This document shows positions 55,162 to 61,584 of a DNA stretch of 64,000 bases, in pieces. The stretch lies in the NCBI RefSeq assembly GCF_022678625.1, contig NZ_JALBYQ010000001.1:744001-808000 (forward strand), in the 5' to 3' direction. Position numbers and translations under genes: made by a program. Each line of letters begins with the position of its first letter. The stretch's first letter is position 1. The DNA comes from Aliiroseovarius subalbicans (lineage in GTDB: Bacteria; Pseudomonadota; Alphaproteobacteria; Rhodobacterales; Rhodobacteraceae). Below the pieces are notes generated by a model. That model was given only the letters and a program-made list of their open reading frames with translations, was not told the DNA's origin and ran no database searches.

Positions 55162-55443
55162 CTAGAATTCATCAAACTCCGGAACATTGCCTAGCCTTAA
55201 AAGGAAGCTTGGGTCGCCGATCTCTCCACTGGCTGGATCTTCTATCACCATGTAGGCGTCAGCACCTGCGCAATCCTCGGATTGAGCCTCTCGTTCGGCT
55301 CTGTTTTGTGCTTCCGACGCTGTGGAATATTCAAATTGCTTGGCAATCTTCAGTCCGGTCTGCCCGTTGCGCCGAGCCTTTGTTTCAACATAAGTCTGGC
55401 AGATATAGTGGATTTTTTCCGAGGGAAGCTCTGCGCTTGTCAT
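55162..55443 (-). CDS. Small conserved hypothetical protein
   Basis: 93 aa with AAGGA eight bases before the ATG. Soluble, charged and rich in Glu/Arg/Ala: IHYICQTYVETKARRNG, FEYSTASEAQNRAEREA, CAGADAYMVIEDPASGEIGDPSFLLRLG. The ordered codon use and a well-formed C-terminus (NVPEFDEF) support a real gene; similar short proteins occur in Rhodobacterales by my recollection. No function is known. It is isolated in the gene-poor stretch. Confidence 0.6.
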   Translation of the reverse strand: MTSAELPSEKIHYICQTYVETKARRNGQTGLKIAKQFEYSTASEAQNRAEREAQSEDCAGADAYMVIEDPASGEIGDPSFLLRLGNVPEFDEF

Positions 55444-55589
55444 GGATGGATCCTTGTTGTCGGCAGGGGCGATTGGAATATCTGGGAACAGCTCTGGCAG
55501 ATTTCAGCCTGAATGACGTGACTGTTGCCCAGCAGAGCACTCAACGCAAAGCAATGCCGCCGAAGCTCCATAATCACTTGGAAACGGCT

Positions 55590-55823
55590 CTAAGAGGGTC
55601 GTGTTTTACGCGCTGTTTTCGCCGTCGTTTCGGATGGCGTGTTCGCTTCTCTTTCAAGGCGGTTATTGCGAAGCCGGGTGACTTTAGCTTGTCGTTGTTC
55701 CGTTTCCTCGTCGACCATTTGTCTGACGACACGCGTCGTCTTATCCAACGGGGTTCCTGTCTCGCAAGCCAGCATGCTGCTTGCAGGCTGAATTTCGAGC
55801 TTGAACTGACGGCAGTCATGCAT
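55590..55823 (-). CDS. Possible small protein, Lys/Arg-rich C-terminus
   Basis: 77 aa if it starts at ATGCATGAC. Pattern MHDCRQFKLEIQPASSMLA, then TTRVVRQMVDEETEQRQAKVTRLRNNRLEREAN, an amphipathic charged helix that looks protein-like. Upstream is a longer in-frame reading that looks like non-coding sequence, and no good ribosome site precedes the ATG. Could be a remnant or a spurious frame. Confidence 0.35.
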   Translation of the reverse strand: MHDCRQFKLEIQPASSMLACETGTPLDKTTRVVRQMVDEETEQRQAKVTRLRNNRLEREANTPSETTAKTARKTRPS

Positions 55824-56010
55824 GCAGCTGGATTGGAGATTTCCGCTCAACGCTCGAACCTGCTGTTGACCGCTCGGGGCTCGCAGGGCTGCTTTGGGTC
55901 GCGTGCGTCGGAAGGGCCGATCGGATGACATCAGAGGGCTTCGCGGCGGATCATCCAAGCCTGCGCGCCCGGCTCTGACCGGTGGCAGGGTGCCCGTCCT
56001 GATTTGCTCG

Positions 56011-56358
56011 CTAGCTTTTCGAGTGTTGCGCCGCGAGGTCGCGCAGGAACGCGTCATCCGGCCAACGTTTGGTGGCGGCTTCCAGAAGGTCTCCGGGGTA
56101 ATAATCGCCTTCGGCCAGCGGGTTGTCGCGCAGCACGGCCAGGGCGAAGGGTTTCAGCACTTCGGCGCCGATGTCCTGCGCGATCATGATGCGCAGGTCT
56201 TCGGGGGTAAATTGCCCCAGCGGCTTTTTGCGCAGCTGCCCGGTCGTGTTCTCGATGTAGGAGGCGCAGCAAACCAGCGGCCATTTCTGGCCGTCGATCT
56301 CTTCCAGCGTTTTGTTGGCAAGGGACGCCAGTTGGCGCCCCTCTTCATTCTCAGCCAT
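56011..56358 (-). CDS. CDI immunity-like small protein
   Basis: 115 aa. The pattern NKTLEEIDGQKWP, LRKKPLGQFTPEDLRIMIAQDIG and NPLAEGDYYPGDLLEAATKRWP matches immunity proteins of contact-dependent growth inhibition systems as I know the family. Such a protein neutralises the toxin tip of a CdiA partner, but no CdiA or CdiB gene is in the window. Its ATG overlaps the acuI stop by eight bases, so it is the last gene of the DMSP operon. Whether it still serves in immunity or has another role is open. Confidence 0.6.
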   Translation of the reverse strand: MAENEEGRQLASLANKTLEEIDGQKWPLVCCASYIENTTGQLRKKPLGQFTPEDLRIMIAQDIGAEVLKPFALAVLRDNPLAEGDYYPGDLLEAATKRWPDDAFLRDLAAQHSKS

Positions 56359-57343
56359 TCACGTCCACCACGACACGACCCTTGACCTGACCCTTCAGGA
56401 TATCCGCGCCCAAACCCGGCAGGTCCGACAGCGTGGCAGGGTTCACCATGGCCTCGAGTTTATCCATCGGCAGGTCGGATGCAATACGCGTCCAGGCGCG
56501 CAGGCGGTTGTCATAGGGCTGCATCACTGAATCAATGCCCAGAAGGTTCACGCCACGCAGCAGGAACGGGATCACTGTGGCGGGCAGGTTCGCCCCCCCC
56601 GCCAGGCCAACCGCCGCGACCGAGCCGCCGTATTTCATCTGGCCCAGCACACGGGCCAGCATCGGCCCACCCACGGCGTCGACACAGCCCGCCCAGGTTT
56701 CGGCCTCAAGCGGGCGCTTGGTGGTTTCGTTCAGCTCCTCGCGCGCCACGATCCGGGACGCGCCCAGCGATGTCAGGTAATCGGCCTGATCCGGGCGCCC
56801 GGTCACTGCGGCGACCTGATAGCCCAGGTTGGCCAGGATTGCTGTGGCAACCGAACCAACACCGCCGGCGGCCCCGGTGACCAGCACCTCGCCCTTGTCC
56901 GGGCTCAGCCCGTGATCCTCCAGCGCCATCACCGACAGCATCGCGGTGAAACCCGCCGTGCCCACTGCCATGGCCTGCCGCGCGTCCAGCCCGCCGGGCA
57001 GCGGCACCAGCCAATCGGCCTTCACCCGCGCCTTTTGCGCATAGCCGCCCCAGTGCGCCTCACCCACGCGCCAGCCGGTCAGAACGACCTTGTCGCCGGG
57101 TTTATAGCGCGCGTCGTCGGACGCCTCGACGGTGCCGGCAAAGTCGATGCCGGGCACATGCGGGTAATTGCGCACAAGCCCGCCACCCTTGGCCGACAGG
57201 CACAGCCCGTCCTTGTAGTTCACAGTGGAATACTCCACCGCCACCGTCACGTCGCCCTCGGGTAGCGCAGTTTCGTCCAGCTCGGTCAGGTTGGCAGCCG
57301 CCAGCCCGTCTTCGCCCTGTTCCATCACCAATGCTTTGAACAT
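56351..57343 (-). CDS. acuI: AcuI, acryloyl-CoA reductase (NADPH)
   Basis: 330 aa from ATGTTCAAAGC; an ATG two codons earlier is too close to the GAGGAA ribosome site. Member of the quinone-oxidoreductase (YhdH) branch of medium-chain dehydrogenases. Segments are VNYKDGLCLSAKGG, PHVPGIDFAGTVE, the NADPH Rossmann loop VTGAAGGVGSVATAIL and VGLAGGANLPATVIPF. It reduces toxic acryloyl-CoA from DMSP degradation to propionyl-CoA. It follows dmdA by 10 bases, the usual roseobacter pairing. Confidence 0.95.
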   Translation of the reverse strand: MFKALVMEQGEDGLAAANLTELDETALPEGDVTVAVEYSTVNYKDGLCLSAKGGGLVRNYPHVPGIDFAGTVEASDDARYKPGDKVVLTGWRVGEAHWGGYAQKARVKADWLVPLPGGLDARQAMAVGTAGFTAMLSVMALEDHGLSPDKGEVLVTGAAGGVGSVATAILANLGYQVAAVTGRPDQADYLTSLGASRIVAREELNETTKRPLEAETWAGCVDAVGGPMLARVLGQMKYGGSVAAVGLAGGANLPATVIPFLLRGVNLLGIDSVMQPYDNRLRAWTRIASDLPMDKLEAMVNPATLSDLPGLGADILKGQVKGRVVVDVNG

Positions 57344-57353
57344 CGTCATTTCC

Positions 57354-58457
57354 TCATATCCAGAATGTTTCATGGACCATGACCGCGCGCGGCCCGTCCG
57401 GTGTGATCACGTCAAGTTCAGTGCCCGACGACCAATGGGTCATGCGCACCATGCCGATGCCGACGCCGGTGGCAAAATCGGGCGAATTTGCTGCCGAGGT
57501 CACCTGCCCGACTTGCAGGTTGCCATCCATCAACGGCCAGGCCCGGTCGCAGGGCGGCACATGGCCATATATCTCGATCGCGCGGATCTGTTGCACAGGG
57601 CCTTCCTTGGCCACGCGCAACAGCGCATCGCGCCCGACGCATCCCAGCGCGTCCTCGGTCTGGCAAAACCGCCCCAGCCCGCATTCGTGGGGCGTGTTGT
57701 GACGGGTCATGTCGTTGCCATAGGACAGCATCCCGCCCTCGATCCGTTCGATCAGGTTGGGACAGCCCGCATGCACGTCCAGCGATTTGCCCGCCTCGAA
57801 CAGCGCGTGCCACAGCGGCATGGCGATGTCGGACCCGTCGACATAGATCTCGAACCCGCCCTGTTTCGAGTATCCTGAGCGCGCGACGATCAGGTCACGG
57901 CCCTTAAAGGCCAGGCGTTTGTAACGGAAAAAGCGGATGTCGCGCACCGCGTCGCCGAACACCGCTGCCATCAGGTCATCGGCCCGCGGGCCTTGAATGG
58001 CCAGCGGCGACACGTCGGGTTCATCCACCAGCACATCCAGCCGAAAGCCATAGGCCAGGCCCTTGACCCAGAACAGCAAATCACTGTCGGCAATGGAAAT
58101 CCAGTAGCGGTCCTCGTCCAGTTTCAACGCCACGGGGTCGTTCAACATGCCGCCGGTCTCATCGACCATCGGCACATAGAAACACTGGCCGTCCTGCATC
58201 TTCGACAGGTTGCGTGGCGTCAGCATCTGCACCAGACGCGCCGCATCCGGACCGCGGATTTCGACCTGCCGTTCGCAGGCAACATCCCAGACCTGCACCG
58301 CGCTTTTCAGGTGGTGGTAGTCTTCCTCGAACGACCGGAACACGGTCGGCAGAAGCATGTGGTTGTAAACCGTATACCCCTTGACCCCGGCGGCGGTGAC
58401 GCCATCCGAGAACGGGGTGCGCCGCACGCGGCGGGACGGGGCGATCGTGGTTGTCAT
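57354..58457 (-). CDS. dmdA: DmdA, dimethylsulfoniopropionate demethylase
   Basis: 367 aa from the ATG after GGGAGCGC. Tetrahydrofolate-dependent enzyme related to the glycine-cleavage T protein; it converts DMSP to methylmercaptopropionate and 5-methyl-THF. Diagnostic segments are SRRVRRTPFSDGV near the N-terminus, GYTVYNHMLLPTVF, QVWDVACERQVEIRGPDA, RSGYSKQGGFEIYVDGSD and GGMLSYGNDMTR. These follow the roseobacter DmdA sequence closely, which makes it DMSP-specific rather than a general GcvT. Next to acuI and downstream of DUF1326 in one apparent operon. Confidence 0.94.
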   Translation of the reverse strand: MTTTIAPSRRVRRTPFSDGVTAAGVKGYTVYNHMLLPTVFRSFEEDYHHLKSAVQVWDVACERQVEIRGPDAARLVQMLTPRNLSKMQDGQCFYVPMVDETGGMLNDPVALKLDEDRYWISIADSDLLFWVKGLAYGFRLDVLVDEPDVSPLAIQGPRADDLMAAVFGDAVRDIRFFRYKRLAFKGRDLIVARSGYSKQGGFEIYVDGSDIAMPLWHALFEAGKSLDVHAGCPNLIERIEGGMLSYGNDMTRHNTPHECGLGRFCQTEDALGCVGRDALLRVAKEGPVQQIRAIEIYGHVPPCDRAWPLMDGNLQVGQVTSAANSPDFATGVGIGMVRMTHWSSGTELDVITPDGPRAVMVHETFWI

Positions 58458-58487
58458 GGGTCGCGCTCCCAATCGGTCAGGCGGGGC

Positions 58488-59123
58488 TTAGCGCCCCGGC
58501 CCTTTCCAGTCGATCTGGCAGATCTCGGCGGATTTGCCGTCGAAATCCCACACCCGGCCAAAGGCGCGCACGCGGCCCTGGTTGGCGGTGGCCACGGTGA
58601 TGTCGGGGCCCATCCAGTATTCAGTGTTGGTGATCACCTGGTCCTCGCCCCCCTTGCCCGGCACCGGGACAATCTCGCCCTTGATGGCGCGACCGACCAT
58701 CAGGCGGCGGGTCTTGCCCTCGGTCTCAAACGTGATCGGCGCGCGTTCGGCGCCCAGGAAATCGCTGACCAGCATGGAAAACAGCCCCGTGGTGCCCTTG
58801 GCCTTGCCGGTGAAGATGTTGCACAGCCCATCGAACGCCGCATCCGAGGCGCGGTCGTCGATATAGGCCGCGGCCTTCCAGTTGCCACGCGCCATGTTGC
58901 CGGGGATTTCCAGCAACAGGCCCACGTTCAGCCCCGACAGGTCATGTTCGCCATACTGGCCTTCGTCGATGCGAATGCCGGCCCAGCCCATGCAGTAACC
59001 TTCGGTCGGCGGGTGATTGCCCAGCGAAACGACGCAGGGGCAGAACACCGTGCAGTTGCAGTTAAGGATCAATTCCCCCTTGATGGTCCATTCGACCTGT
59101 CCGACTTGGGTGTCGTCCAGCAT
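58488..59123 (-). CDS. DUF1326 family protein
   Basis: 211 aa from the ATG after GGAGGACG. The N-terminal cysteine cluster CNCTVFCPC and a following CMGWAGIRID segment suggest a metal or redox site; the fold is described as beta-rich for the family. No signal peptide is seen. Function unknown. It lies 12 bases after DUF2182 and 30 bases before dmdA, in the same direction. The pair DUF1326/DUF2182 recurs together in alphaproteobacteria as I recall, so they likely act jointly. Confidence 0.88.
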   Translation of the reverse strand: MLDDTQVGQVEWTIKGELILNCNCTVFCPCVVSLGNHPPTEGYCMGWAGIRIDEGQYGEHDLSGLNVGLLLEIPGNMARGNWKAAAYIDDRASDAAFDGLCNIFTGKAKGTTGLFSMLVSDFLGAERAPITFETEGKTRRLMVGRAIKGEIVPVPGKGGEDQVITNTEYWMGPDITVATANQGRVRAFGRVWDFDGKSAEICQIDWKGPGR

Positions 59124-59135
59124 GTTGCGTCCTCC

Positions 59136-59891
59136 TCAGATCAGCGCAGTTGCCACGACCGCAAGACCTGCGGCCATTAACCCCCACCCCAGCGGCTTCG
59201 TCAGCGGCCGTCCAAGGTCGGGAAGTTTCTCGAAAATCATCACCAGCGTTGCCAGCCCCATGAAGGCCAGGTTCATCACCCCGCCCACGAAGCCCAACAG
59301 CATCAAGGCCCAGCAGCAGCCCAGGCACAGCGCGCCCAGGCGCAGGCCCAGCTCAAGCGGGTTGCGCAGGCCGGGGCGCCAGTATTGCATGAAAAAAGTC
59401 AGGGGCTCGCGGCACTGGGTCAGGCAGGCGTCCTTGAGGGCCGAGAATTGATAGGCCCCCGCCCCGAACAAAAGCGCGCCCGACAGCCAGGGCGTCAGGC
59501 TCTGCCCGATCGGCGACACCAGCCCCGCGCGAAACAGCGCGATCTGCAAGGCGGCGGCGACCAGTGAAAAGCCCATCCAGATCACCAGGTATCCCGCCAG
59601 CAGAAGCTGGAACCCGGTGCGCGTGGCCGCCCCCGAATGGATCAGGTCGTCATAGGTCGCGAGCGCGGGCAGGAAGGTTGGCGCCATCATCGCCGCTGCC
59701 ATCACCGCCCACATCGCCGCAAGGCCCCAATACCCCGCCTGGTCCGGGCTGACGATGCACAGGGACCGCCAGAACTCGGCACCATAGATCTGCGCCGCCC
59801 CGCGCAGATCCGCCGGCAACGCCATCGCATAGAGCACCGCCCAGCCTGCCAGGATCAGGCCGAACAGCGTCAACCAATGTGGCGCGGCCAT
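59136..59891 (-). CDS. DUF2182 family membrane protein
   Basis: 251 aa from the ATG eight bases after AAGGA; an ATG nine codons earlier (59918) behind GGGGGA is an alternative. About seven transmembrane helices. Motif-bearing segments are MWAVMAAAMMAPTFLPAL and LGALCLGCCWALMLLGFVGGVMNLAFMG with a Cys-Cys pair, and CLTQCREPL. The family is described as metal-binding membrane protein of unknown role. First gene of the operon with DUF1326, dmdA and acuI, facing the GntR regulator. Confidence 0.87.
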   Translation of the reverse strand: MAAPHWLTLFGLILAGWAVLYAMALPADLRGAAQIYGAEFWRSLCIVSPDQAGYWGLAAMWAVMAAAMMAPTFLPALATYDDLIHSGAATRTGFQLLLAGYLVIWMGFSLVAAALQIALFRAGLVSPIGQSLTPWLSGALLFGAGAYQFSALKDACLTQCREPLTFFMQYWRPGLRNPLELGLRLGALCLGCCWALMLLGFVGGVMNLAFMGLATLVMIFEKLPDLGRPLTKPLGWGLMAAGLAVVATALI

Positions 59892-59946
59892 ACTTCTTAT
59901 CCTTGACGCAAGCGGCATCTGTCCCCCATGTGTGAGTCGGGATTAT

Positions 59947-59975
59947 AATGTCTGACAATTGAATGTCTGACAATT
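59947..59975. promoter_or_regulatory. Tandem GntR/FadR-type operator
   Basis: AATGTCTGACAATT occurs twice, at 59947-59960 and 59962-59975, one base apart. Each copy centres on the palindrome TGTC-T-GACA, the kind bound by FadR-subfamily GntR repressors. It lies between DUF2182 and gntR, so it can control the operon and autoregulate the repressor. It is next to the gntR ribosome site. Confidence 0.8.
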
Positions 59976-59988
59976 AAAAAGGAACGCC

Positions 59989-60720
59989 ATGCGCACGGAA
60001 CTTGAGACCGACCGCGACCTGTCGATGCAGATCGCCGCCGCAATCCGCGACGCAATCGTTGAGGGCGGGTTGATCGTCGATCAGCGCCTGCCCTCCGAGG
60101 CCGAGTTGTGCGAACAGTTTGGCGTGTCCCGCCCCACGGTGCGCGAAGCACTGAAGCGGCTGGCGGCACAGAACCTGATCCGCACGCAGCGTGGGGCCTC
60201 CGGGGGCGCCTTCGTGAACCGGATGTCATTCGAGGAAGCCTACGGCCAGCAGATCACCACCTCGACGCTGCTTCTCAGTATGAACGAGGTCGATTTCGAA
60301 ACCGCCTGCGAGGCGCGTTATGCGCTGGAACGGGCCTGTATCGCGCTGTCTGCCCAGCGACGCAGCGCCGATCACCTGGCCACGATGCGCGCTGAAATCC
60401 ACCGCCAGGCGCAGCCCGGTTTGACGGACGAGGCCTTTTGCGCCTCGGACGTGGCGTTTCACCGCGCGCTGGTGGACGGCGCGATGAACCCGGTCCTGTC
60501 CTATCAGCTGGCCGGTGCGGTCGAGGCGACCCAGCCCCTGATGAACATGATCACCTTCACGGCGCGGTCACGTGAGGAAATCGTCGGGCTGCACACGCGC
60601 ATCGCCAATGCGATCGAGGCACAGGACGGCGCTGCGGCAGATCAGGCCTTGGCCGACCTCACAGCCTACACTCTGACCCTAGCAGAACAGGTTAGGGCCG
60701 CGCGAGCACAACGGGGCTGA
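59989..60720 (+). CDS. GntR/FadR-family transcriptional regulator
   Basis: 243 aa. N-terminal winged helix LPSEAELCEQFGVSRPTVREALKRLAAQNLIRTQRGASGG (about residues 35-75), then the helical FCD effector domain with candidate metal ligands near ASDVAFHRALVDGAMN and EEIVGLHTRIANAI. It is preceded by AAAAAGGAACGCC. It is divergent from DUF2182-DUF1326-dmdA-acuI, so it is the likely repressor of this operon with an effector from DMSP metabolism. Regulators of this kind lie near dmdA in other roseobacters as I recall. Confidence 0.9.
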   Translation: MRTELETDRDLSMQIAAAIRDAIVEGGLIVDQRLPSEAELCEQFGVSRPTVREALKRLAAQNLIRTQRGASGGAFVNRMSFEEAYGQQITTSTLLLSMNEVDFETACEARYALERACIALSAQRRSADHLATMRAEIHRQAQPGLTDEAFCASDVAFHRALVDGAMNPVLSYQLAGAVEATQPLMNMITFTARSREEIVGLHTRIANAIEAQDGAAADQALADLTAYTLTLAEQVRAARAQRG

Positions 60721-60723
60721 CAC

Positions 60724-61470
60724 CTACCACGTCCGCGCAATGCAGATTTCTGCCGCCGTCAGGGAAGCGAACGGGCCAATTGCCTGACCAAGGACGGGGC
60801 TTCCTCGCCCGTCTGACCTTGTGACCTCAAGGCTTACCGGCCCAAGAAGATGATCCGAAGGCGCGACATAGGCTCTGGAGCCAGCCGGGACGTTCAGCCG
60901 AAACGTGTTTTCCGGCCCGCAATGGCGCGGGGGGACATTGCGCAATTCAGGGAACGCAAAAGAATAGATCAGTCTGCCCTGCGTTTGGCGCCCGCAAACA
61001 CGTTGCCCGCTGCAATCGAGCTCGGTCGCGACGGTTGTGATCGTGAATCCGAGCTGGGCCCCTTCACGATAGTTCCGGTACGCACTGTGGATCCATAGAT
61101 CGAAATCCGAGGCCGAACGCCTCTGAAACCCGACGATATCCAGGTCCTCAATGGTCAGATACCCAGAACCGGCGGCTGAACCTGTGGTCATGTTGTGCAG
61201 AAGCGGCGCGCGTTCCGTGATCGCGTGGCGCTGTCGATCACGGGTGCGACGCGGTTCGCTAAGTTCGATCAGAATGCTGTGCAATTCCCCATCCGAATTC
61301 ACATCTCCAGTGGGGAACATCTGGAACTGTCCAAGGTTTCGGATTTCGATCCGGTATATATCCCGCCCCGATGCGCGGTTTTGAGTGGCCGAGACCTCCT
61401 TGGCCAATACCAGTTGTGAAGTGCCCGTGGAAATCATGGCCACAAGGGCCACAAGGCGCAGAAAGTTCAT
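60724..61470 (-). CDS. Secreted hypothetical protein
   Basis: 248 aa from the ATG after AAGGACTT. The signal peptide is MNFLRLVALVAMISTGTSQLVLA. The mature part is beta-rich, with two or more Cys (LDCSGQRVCGRQ and ENTFRL preceded by RHCGP) that may form disulfides. No known domain recognised. It faces gntR tail to tail three bases apart and stands between gntR and ssrA. Confidence 0.6.
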   Translation of the reverse strand: MNFLRLVALVAMISTGTSQLVLAKEVSATQNRASGRDIYRIEIRNLGQFQMFPTGDVNSDGELHSILIELSEPRRTRDRQRHAITERAPLLHNMTTGSAAGSGYLTIEDLDIVGFQRRSASDFDLWIHSAYRNYREGAQLGFTITTVATELDCSGQRVCGRQTQGRLIYSFAFPELRNVPPRHCGPENTFRLNVPAGSRAYVAPSDHLLGPVSLEVTRSDGRGSPVLGQAIGPFASLTAAEICIARTW

Positions 61471-61584
61471 AACAAGTCCTTTCCAAAACACTCATACCAT
61501 CCACACAACATACACGATTTGGCCAGGTTTTCACATCCTGGCGTGACATGGCGATTGAACCAGCGCCGATGAGCGCCTATATAT

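Follow-up and report, generated by a model that had tools for sequence, protein, structure and literature searches.

A PpoB2–DUF1326 gene pair is conserved in the dmdA–acuI operon of Rhodobacteraceae and may handle copper(I) and thiols

We analyzed a 64,000-nucleotide stretch of the genome of Aliiroseovarius subalbicans (RefSeq assembly GCF_022678625.1, contig NZ_JALBYQ010000001.1, positions 744,001 to 808,000; hereafter, the window), in which genes for a membrane protein of the PpoB2 family and for a DUF1326 protein stand ahead of dmdA and acuI, encoding the dimethylsulfoniopropionate (DMSP) demethylase and acrylyl-CoA reductase. The PpoB2–DUF1326–dmdA–acuI operon is a well-supported, conserved arrangement of the Rhodobacteraceae and no local accident. 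The steadiest partner of the PpoB2–DUF1326 pair is acuI, not dmdA. The genes concerned, in window coordinates, are as follows.

59136–59918, minus strand: PpoB2-family (formerly DUF2182, COG5486) membrane protein, gene 1 of the operon (PF09948, 208 bits, cut-off 28.7)
58488–59123, minus strand: DUF1326 protein with the motif CNCTVFCPC...C, gene 2 (PF07040, 176 bits, cut-off 25)
57354–58457, minus strand: dmdA, DMSP demethylase (NF009133 equivalog, 654 bits, cut-off 410)
56351–57349 (alternative start 57343), minus strand: acuI, acrylyl-CoA reductase (NF051456 equivalog, 446 bits, cut-off 440)
56011–56358, minus strand: CdiI_3-like gene overlapping the end of acuI, a lineage-specific addition (PF18616, 86 bits, cut-off 28)
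59989–60720, plus strand: gntR, divergent FadR-type regulator with GntR and FCD domains (PF00392, PF07729)

Profile searches located these six genes where the initial annotation had placed them, in a genome of 3.5 Mb that is 99% complete, and the spacings it gave from PpoB2 to the CdiI_3-like gene, 12, 30, 10 (4 with the upstream ATG of acuI) and −8 bases, are right. The PpoB2 start at 59918 agrees with the N-terminus of its relatives. AcuI of the window clears the NF051456 cut-off narrowly, and just 13 of the 120 genera of the family sample described below exceed that cut-off. The tight spacing and the lack of any operator inside the unit fit a predicted single transcription unit.

To place the window among its relatives, we compared the neighborhood in one genome from each of 120 Rhodobacteraceae genera. 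DUF1326 matched in 57 genera, 52 of which were kept at ≥53% identity, with five weak-match-only genera (G025, G057, G069, G089, and G107) and all second copies being dropped; DmdA matched in 60 genera, and the 49 over the cut-off were kept. PpoB2 was found in 59 genera and AcuI in 108. At the 52 DUF1326 loci, some of which are cut by contig ends, PpoB2 lies directly upstream in all 52, accompanied by AcuI in 44, DmdA in 38 (including the sub-cut-off G014), GntR in 35, and DinB in 26. In 37 of the 39 genera that encode a close DUF1326 as well as DmdA, dmdA follows in the same order and strand, at a downstream distance of 8 to 1655 bases; in the 2 exceptions, G001 and G090, DmdA lies elsewhere in the genome than DUF1326. 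The longer DUF1326–dmdA gaps hold a DinB-family gene (PF05163) or an acyl-CoA ligase of the PRK08162 subfamily. The linkage of the pair to dmdA, proposed initially from the window, is therefore not restricted to it. The DinB-family gene, which the window lacks, is a frequent additional member of the operon. At the G014 locus (L083), a seemingly decayed dmdA separates DUF1326 from acuI, with its neighbors intact, and at another locus (L036, G043:C11:639633-640736) a high-scoring dmdA was reported with one in-frame TGA.

A second set, comprising the 80 nearest DUF1326 in GTDB genomes and partially overlapping the genus sample (the contig of L150 is that of G115), spans, according to record titles, Aliiroseovarius, Roseovarius, Ruegeria, Phaeobacter, Shimia, Leisingera, Defluviimonas, and others, with one title reading Nocardioides. 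PpoB2 is beside 79 of these named loci, AcuI beside 78, and DmdA beside 59, the exceptions for PpoB2 and AcuI being short contigs. In 21 of the 80, including that of Roseovarius pacificus, AcuI but no DmdA lies beside the pair. Laboratory Roseobacters with the operon include Phaeobacter italicus (L171) and Ruegeria lacuscaerulensis (L180).

The relative constancy of the partners was assessed with a tree built from concatenated PpoB2 and DUF1326 sequences of 131 loci, 119 of which retain at least 3.5 kb downstream. Within these 119 loci, acuI adjoins the pair at 113, dmdA at 89, and DinB at 52, and the fewest changes that the tree allows are 5, 23, and 28, respectively. The ceilings of these change counts differ, the rarer state numbering 6 loci for acuI, 30 for dmdA, and 52 for DinB, so that the counts show mostly separate losses, with dmdA far more changeable than acuI. 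It is the place of acuI, rather than its presence, that is informative, because AcuI is encoded in most of the sampled genera anyway.

These counts bear on the role first suggested for the pair, namely, that it supplies or protects DmdA itself or a step of demethylation. The linkage in 37 of 39 genera speaks for such a role, as does the occurrence of the pair in 39 of the 49 dmdA genomes versus 13 of the 71 others (39 genera with both, 13 with the pair only, 10 with dmdA only, and 58 with neither; Fisher p = 1.6e-11). We nevertheless regard it as improbable: dmdA is absent beside the pair at 30 of the 119 loci, with at least 23 changes on the tree, versus 6 of 119 for acuI, and the 21 named loci mentioned above have the order PpoB2–DUF1326–acuI without dmdA. 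DmdA, moreover, uses tetrahydrofolate and is not known to use a metal.

The region between PpoB2 and the divergent gntR contains the following elements.

59949–59957, no strand: operator TGTCTGACA, proximal to the minus-strand −10; palindrome conserved at homologous junctions
59964–59972, no strand: operator TGTCTGACA, over the minus-strand −35; palindrome conserved at homologous junctions
59942–59973, minus strand: promoter-like TTGTCA or CAGACA / TATAAT, consensus match only

The 2 copies of TGTCTGACA, 15 bp apart, lie on the minus-strand promoter-like sequence and correspond to the tandem operators that had been noted in the promoter shared with gntR. Promoter-like sites number 3 in 55400–60800, compared with a shuffle mean of 0.8. 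We surveyed 112 junctions between gntR and a divergent gene, 107 of which are gntR/PpoB2 gaps. A TGTCNGACA site is present in 102 of the 112 homologous junctions and in 100 of the 107 gntR/PpoB2 gaps, and 5 rearranged control patterns occur in 0, 0, 1, 0, and 0 of the 112. Within 1.76 Mb, 128 of 161 TGTCNGACA sites fall in the 17.6 kb of junctions, a 384-fold enrichment. When one mismatch is allowed, two or more sites are found in 102 of the 112 junctions, most commonly at a spacing of 15 (62 cases). Of the junctions lacking the pair, 1 of the 3 gntR/dmdA gaps and the sole gntR/DinB gap contain sites. Downstream of DUF1326, none of 129 gaps to the following operon gene contains an operator, with scoring limited to gaps of up to about 900 bases. 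From the co-location of gntR and operators, we infer that the GntR protein binds the TGTCTGACA sites; we further infer that it represses transcription and that induction of dmdA–acuI extends to the pair. The extended form, WWTGTCNGACAWT, occurs at only 4 places in the genome of the window, 2 of them at this promoter and one other inside an open reading frame, and hence the regulator looks to act locally. Operators and gene order together support the initial view of a single GntR-linked unit with the pair first behind the promoter. The gene beside gntR, at window positions 60724–61491, has no Pfam or NCBIfam match at E ≤ 0.001.

A copper connection is suggested by the proteins themselves. The Pfam name of PF09948 is PpoB2, copper chaperone, and the PpoB2 of Marinomonas mediterranea, co-encoded with a tyrosinase, is reported to be involved in copper transfer to that enzyme (PMC2855505), so that DUF2182 does have a member with a described function, contrary to what had been stated. 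Of the options first raised for the pair, a copper link thus gained support as one possibility, and a role in demethylation did not. Like the Marinomonas ppoB1–ppoB2 operon (PMC2855505), the window has a PpoB2-family membrane protein encoded within an operon; the Marinomonas partner is the tyrosinase, whereas in the window PpoB2 is accompanied by DUF1326 and by enzymes for which no use of copper is known. Met69, 73, 77, and 78 and Cys165, 169, 198, 201, and 202 of PpoB2 are each present in 52–53 of 53 sequences of the family and in 26–31 of 31 from other families; they form the motifs MWxxMxxxMMxP, CxxxC, and CxGCC. All 132 operon-type relatives have the DUF1326 motif CxCxxxCPC...C; of 48 others, 45 have it in a looser form and the remaining 3 have CGC for CPC. 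No signal sequence is evident in DUF1326. These conserved Met and Cys residues look like Cu(I) ligands. The predicted structure of PpoB2 has 12 helices (mean predicted local distance difference test [pLDDT] score of 90), and no sequence relatives of either protein were found in the PDB at E ≤ 0.001.

The pair also exists outside the operon. At 38 loci from other families, DUF1326 was recognized in 36 and PpoB2 was adjacent in 30, of which 26 are DUF1326-first and 4 PpoB2-first; a second type of pair within the Rhodobacteraceae is DUF1326-first in 11 of 11 cases. These free-standing pairs resemble the operon pair in having the 2 genes side by side with the same conserved residues but differ in being mostly DUF1326-first and in lacking fixed neighbors, the operon being PpoB2-first. 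A multicopper oxidase was confirmed beside one free-standing locus, L254. At L269, a PpoB2-first locus of another family, the acyl-CoA ligase gene comes next, and no DmdA was found in its genome. Four loci of one other-family genus (L270, L271, L280, and L281) have PpoB2–DUF1326 in the operon order, followed by genes for a membrane protein, a distant AcuI-like dehydrogenase, and an ATP-binding cassette transporter.

The reading that we favor, if tentatively, is that a self-contained pair handling Cu(I) and thiols was recruited into a DMSP/acrylate regulon, the copper part being drawn from the Marinomonas PpoB2 and from the conserved residues. PpoB2, in the inner membrane, and DUF1326 would form a promoter-proximal two-gene module of the GntR-linked dmdA–acuI unit, and, owing to this position, both would be made when a DMSP/acrylate signal lifts the repressor. 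The cysteines of DUF1326 would bind Cu(I) and exchange it with PpoB2. Methanethiol can act as a ligand of Cu(I), and acryloyl-CoA is thiol-reactive. DMSP catabolism, in which demethylation leads to methanethiol and acryloyl-CoA uses up thiols, would disturb the thiol and copper balance, which may be why the pair is wanted at that moment; it would then secure copper for the enzymes that need it, or limit free Cu(I), during this metabolism. Acryloyl-CoA is reported to be toxic (PMC4029986), and lacZ fusions to dmdA and acuI of Ruegeria pomeroyi were reported to respond to DMSP with about tenfold and to acrylate with about fourteenfold induction (PMC3338564); by homology with R. pomeroyi, the pair would be expected to respond likewise. 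A more far-reaching and doubtful proposition is that DMSP/acrylate catabolism is coupled to copper, in that a Cu(I)-thiolate DUF1326 protein and a PpoB2 chaperone or transporter would be induced with dmdA–acuI via GntR, making the route taken by DMSP sulfur and the supply of copper interdependent.

The same chemistry could be met without copper, if the pair offers protection from thiol-reactive acryloyl-CoA or methylthioacryloyl-CoA, or removes them, with DUF1326 as a thiol/redox protein, DinB as a thiol transferase, and AcuI as the reductase. DinB proteins can act as thiol transferases, and the DinB (PF05163) gene in half of the 52 loci would fit, as would acuI being the steadiest partner, at 113 of 119 loci. 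AcuI mutants of R. pomeroyi are, in addition, reported to be acrylate-sensitive (PMC3338564). We consider this explanation unlikely: PpoB2 resides in the membrane, the only member of its family with a described function transfers copper (PMC2855505), and the pair is widespread in other families without an adjoining acuI.

Another candidate client is methanethiol oxidase (MtoX, SBP56), a copper enzyme that the pair would mature and that consumes the methanethiol made after DmdA. MtoX is reported to require copper (PMC5739008), mtoX follows the operon on a Marinovum plasmid (see below) and lies near the pair in G043, and it occurs in 29 of the 52 genera with the pair versus 12 of the 68 without it. 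This association is, however, explained by dmdA, being lost inside the dmdA genera (25 of 39 versus 5 of 10, p = 0.48; p = 0.11 within the rest), and the genome of the window has no SBP56 match, so that methanethiol oxidase cannot be the only client. In addition, mtoX is reported to have an SCO1/SenC chaperone gene of its own (PMC5739008). Maturation of MtoX is a highly improbable explanation for the pair, and a copper supply for this enzyme only was likewise set aside as unlikely. In G066 (C1:189548-192088), SBP56/mtoX directly follows a dmdA without the pair. Cupin DMSP lyases (PF16867) were rejected as the reason for the pair: none was found in the genome of the window, where DddP-type lyases were not searched for, and no association with the pair appears within dmdA strata (23 of 39 versus 5 of 10 and 4 of 13 versus 16 of 58).

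Much of the wider region is syntenic, 29 of the 38 linked loci having one or more regional gene clusters in common. The tree-corrected co-occurrence of the pair with dmdA, a result that also counts against the Cu(I)/thiol reading, is not significant (median p = 0.375), with only 6 supported contrasts, too few for a decision, 2.5 in the same direction and 0.1 in the other, on a tree of a single gene (AcuI) from 101 genera, 19 of the 120 being left out for having no usable AcuI or one of the Rhodobacter sphaeroides type. Both results would fit a passenger, retained by inherited synteny and sharing the promoter but no function. We judge this distinctly unlikely, because outside genes change while the operon holds: the commonest flanking cluster occurs at 5 of 37 and 5 of 36 loci, and 9 of the 38 linked loci, one of which is a 3.8-kb contig, contain no gene of the regional clusters. 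The operon also occurs on plasmids of 2 Rhodobacterales, Marinovum algicola and Antarctobacter heliothermus, and the pair keeps a constant position in this subfamily but not elsewhere. Further results count against the Cu(I)/thiol reading. Outside the operon, no recurrent neighbor was seen among 147 neighbors of 39 loci (redundant loci removed; 2 of 149 proteins left out), no Pfam family exceeding 3 matches in the best 25 of 204 families. In the same best 25 families, and in 10 of the 147 neighbors scanned singly, a copper enzyme was not seen as a standard neighbor of the free-standing pair. The PpoB2 model has no Foldseek match in the PDB at E ≤ 0.001 (best E 0.49; best VIA-align Z 5.3), which does not demonstrate a new fold, and the DUF1326 model is poor (pLDDT of 48.5, from 23 sequences). 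Finally, dmdA–acuI of R. pomeroyi (SPO1913–SPO1914; Todd et al. 2012, PMC3338564) shares with the window dmdA followed by acuI in one orientation, but the window has 2 further genes between the promoter and dmdA. In that report, the R. pomeroyi promoter was located on a 350-bp fragment whose end falls within dmdA. The pair thus does not seem to intervene between promoter and dmdA there, which leaves a gap in the argument by homology.

The terms hypothetical, DUF, copper, and GntR are absent from the main text of the R. pomeroyi report (PMC3338564), and the open-licence papers searched hold no description of the PpoB2–DUF1326 addition to dmdA–acuI or of the operator. The dmdA–acuI unit itself is already known. 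A close parallel is plasmid pMaD9 of M. algicola DG 898 (CP010864.1, L344), with the same order of regulator, PpoB2, DUF1326, DmdA, and a dehydrogenase in the place of AcuI. It differs in being plasmid-borne and in having an acyl-CoA ligase gene before dmdA and SBP56/mtoX after the operon, a whole DMSP demethylation unit being present on one plasmid. Both proteins of the pair are annotated there as "(transmembrane) protein involved in DMSP breakdown"; the association has thus not gone wholly unnoticed.

The CdiI_3-like gene, listed initially as the fifth gene of the operon and as resembling contact-dependent inhibition immunity genes, is not core: besides the window, it was found directly after the operon at 7 of the 80 named loci (L140 and L143–L148, all Aliiroseovarius-like) and at none of 60 genus-sample loci. 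Its nearest plasmid relatives are in Streptomyces. Its profile match (86 bits) makes it a candidate immunity gene.

Together, dmdA and acuI set the share of DMSP sulfur that passes to methanethiol and biomass, in addition to detoxifying acrylate. If a copper module does form part of this regulon across dozens of genera, DMSP turnover could be sensitive to trace copper, and 2 widespread but poorly understood families, PpoB2 and DUF1326, would be placed in a physiological context that offers a known inducer and phenotypes to measure. The regulator of the operon gains a candidate operator that is open to testing. The presence of the pair in the DMSP operon of many marine Rhodobacteraceae points to a possible link between copper and the ocean sulfur cycle.

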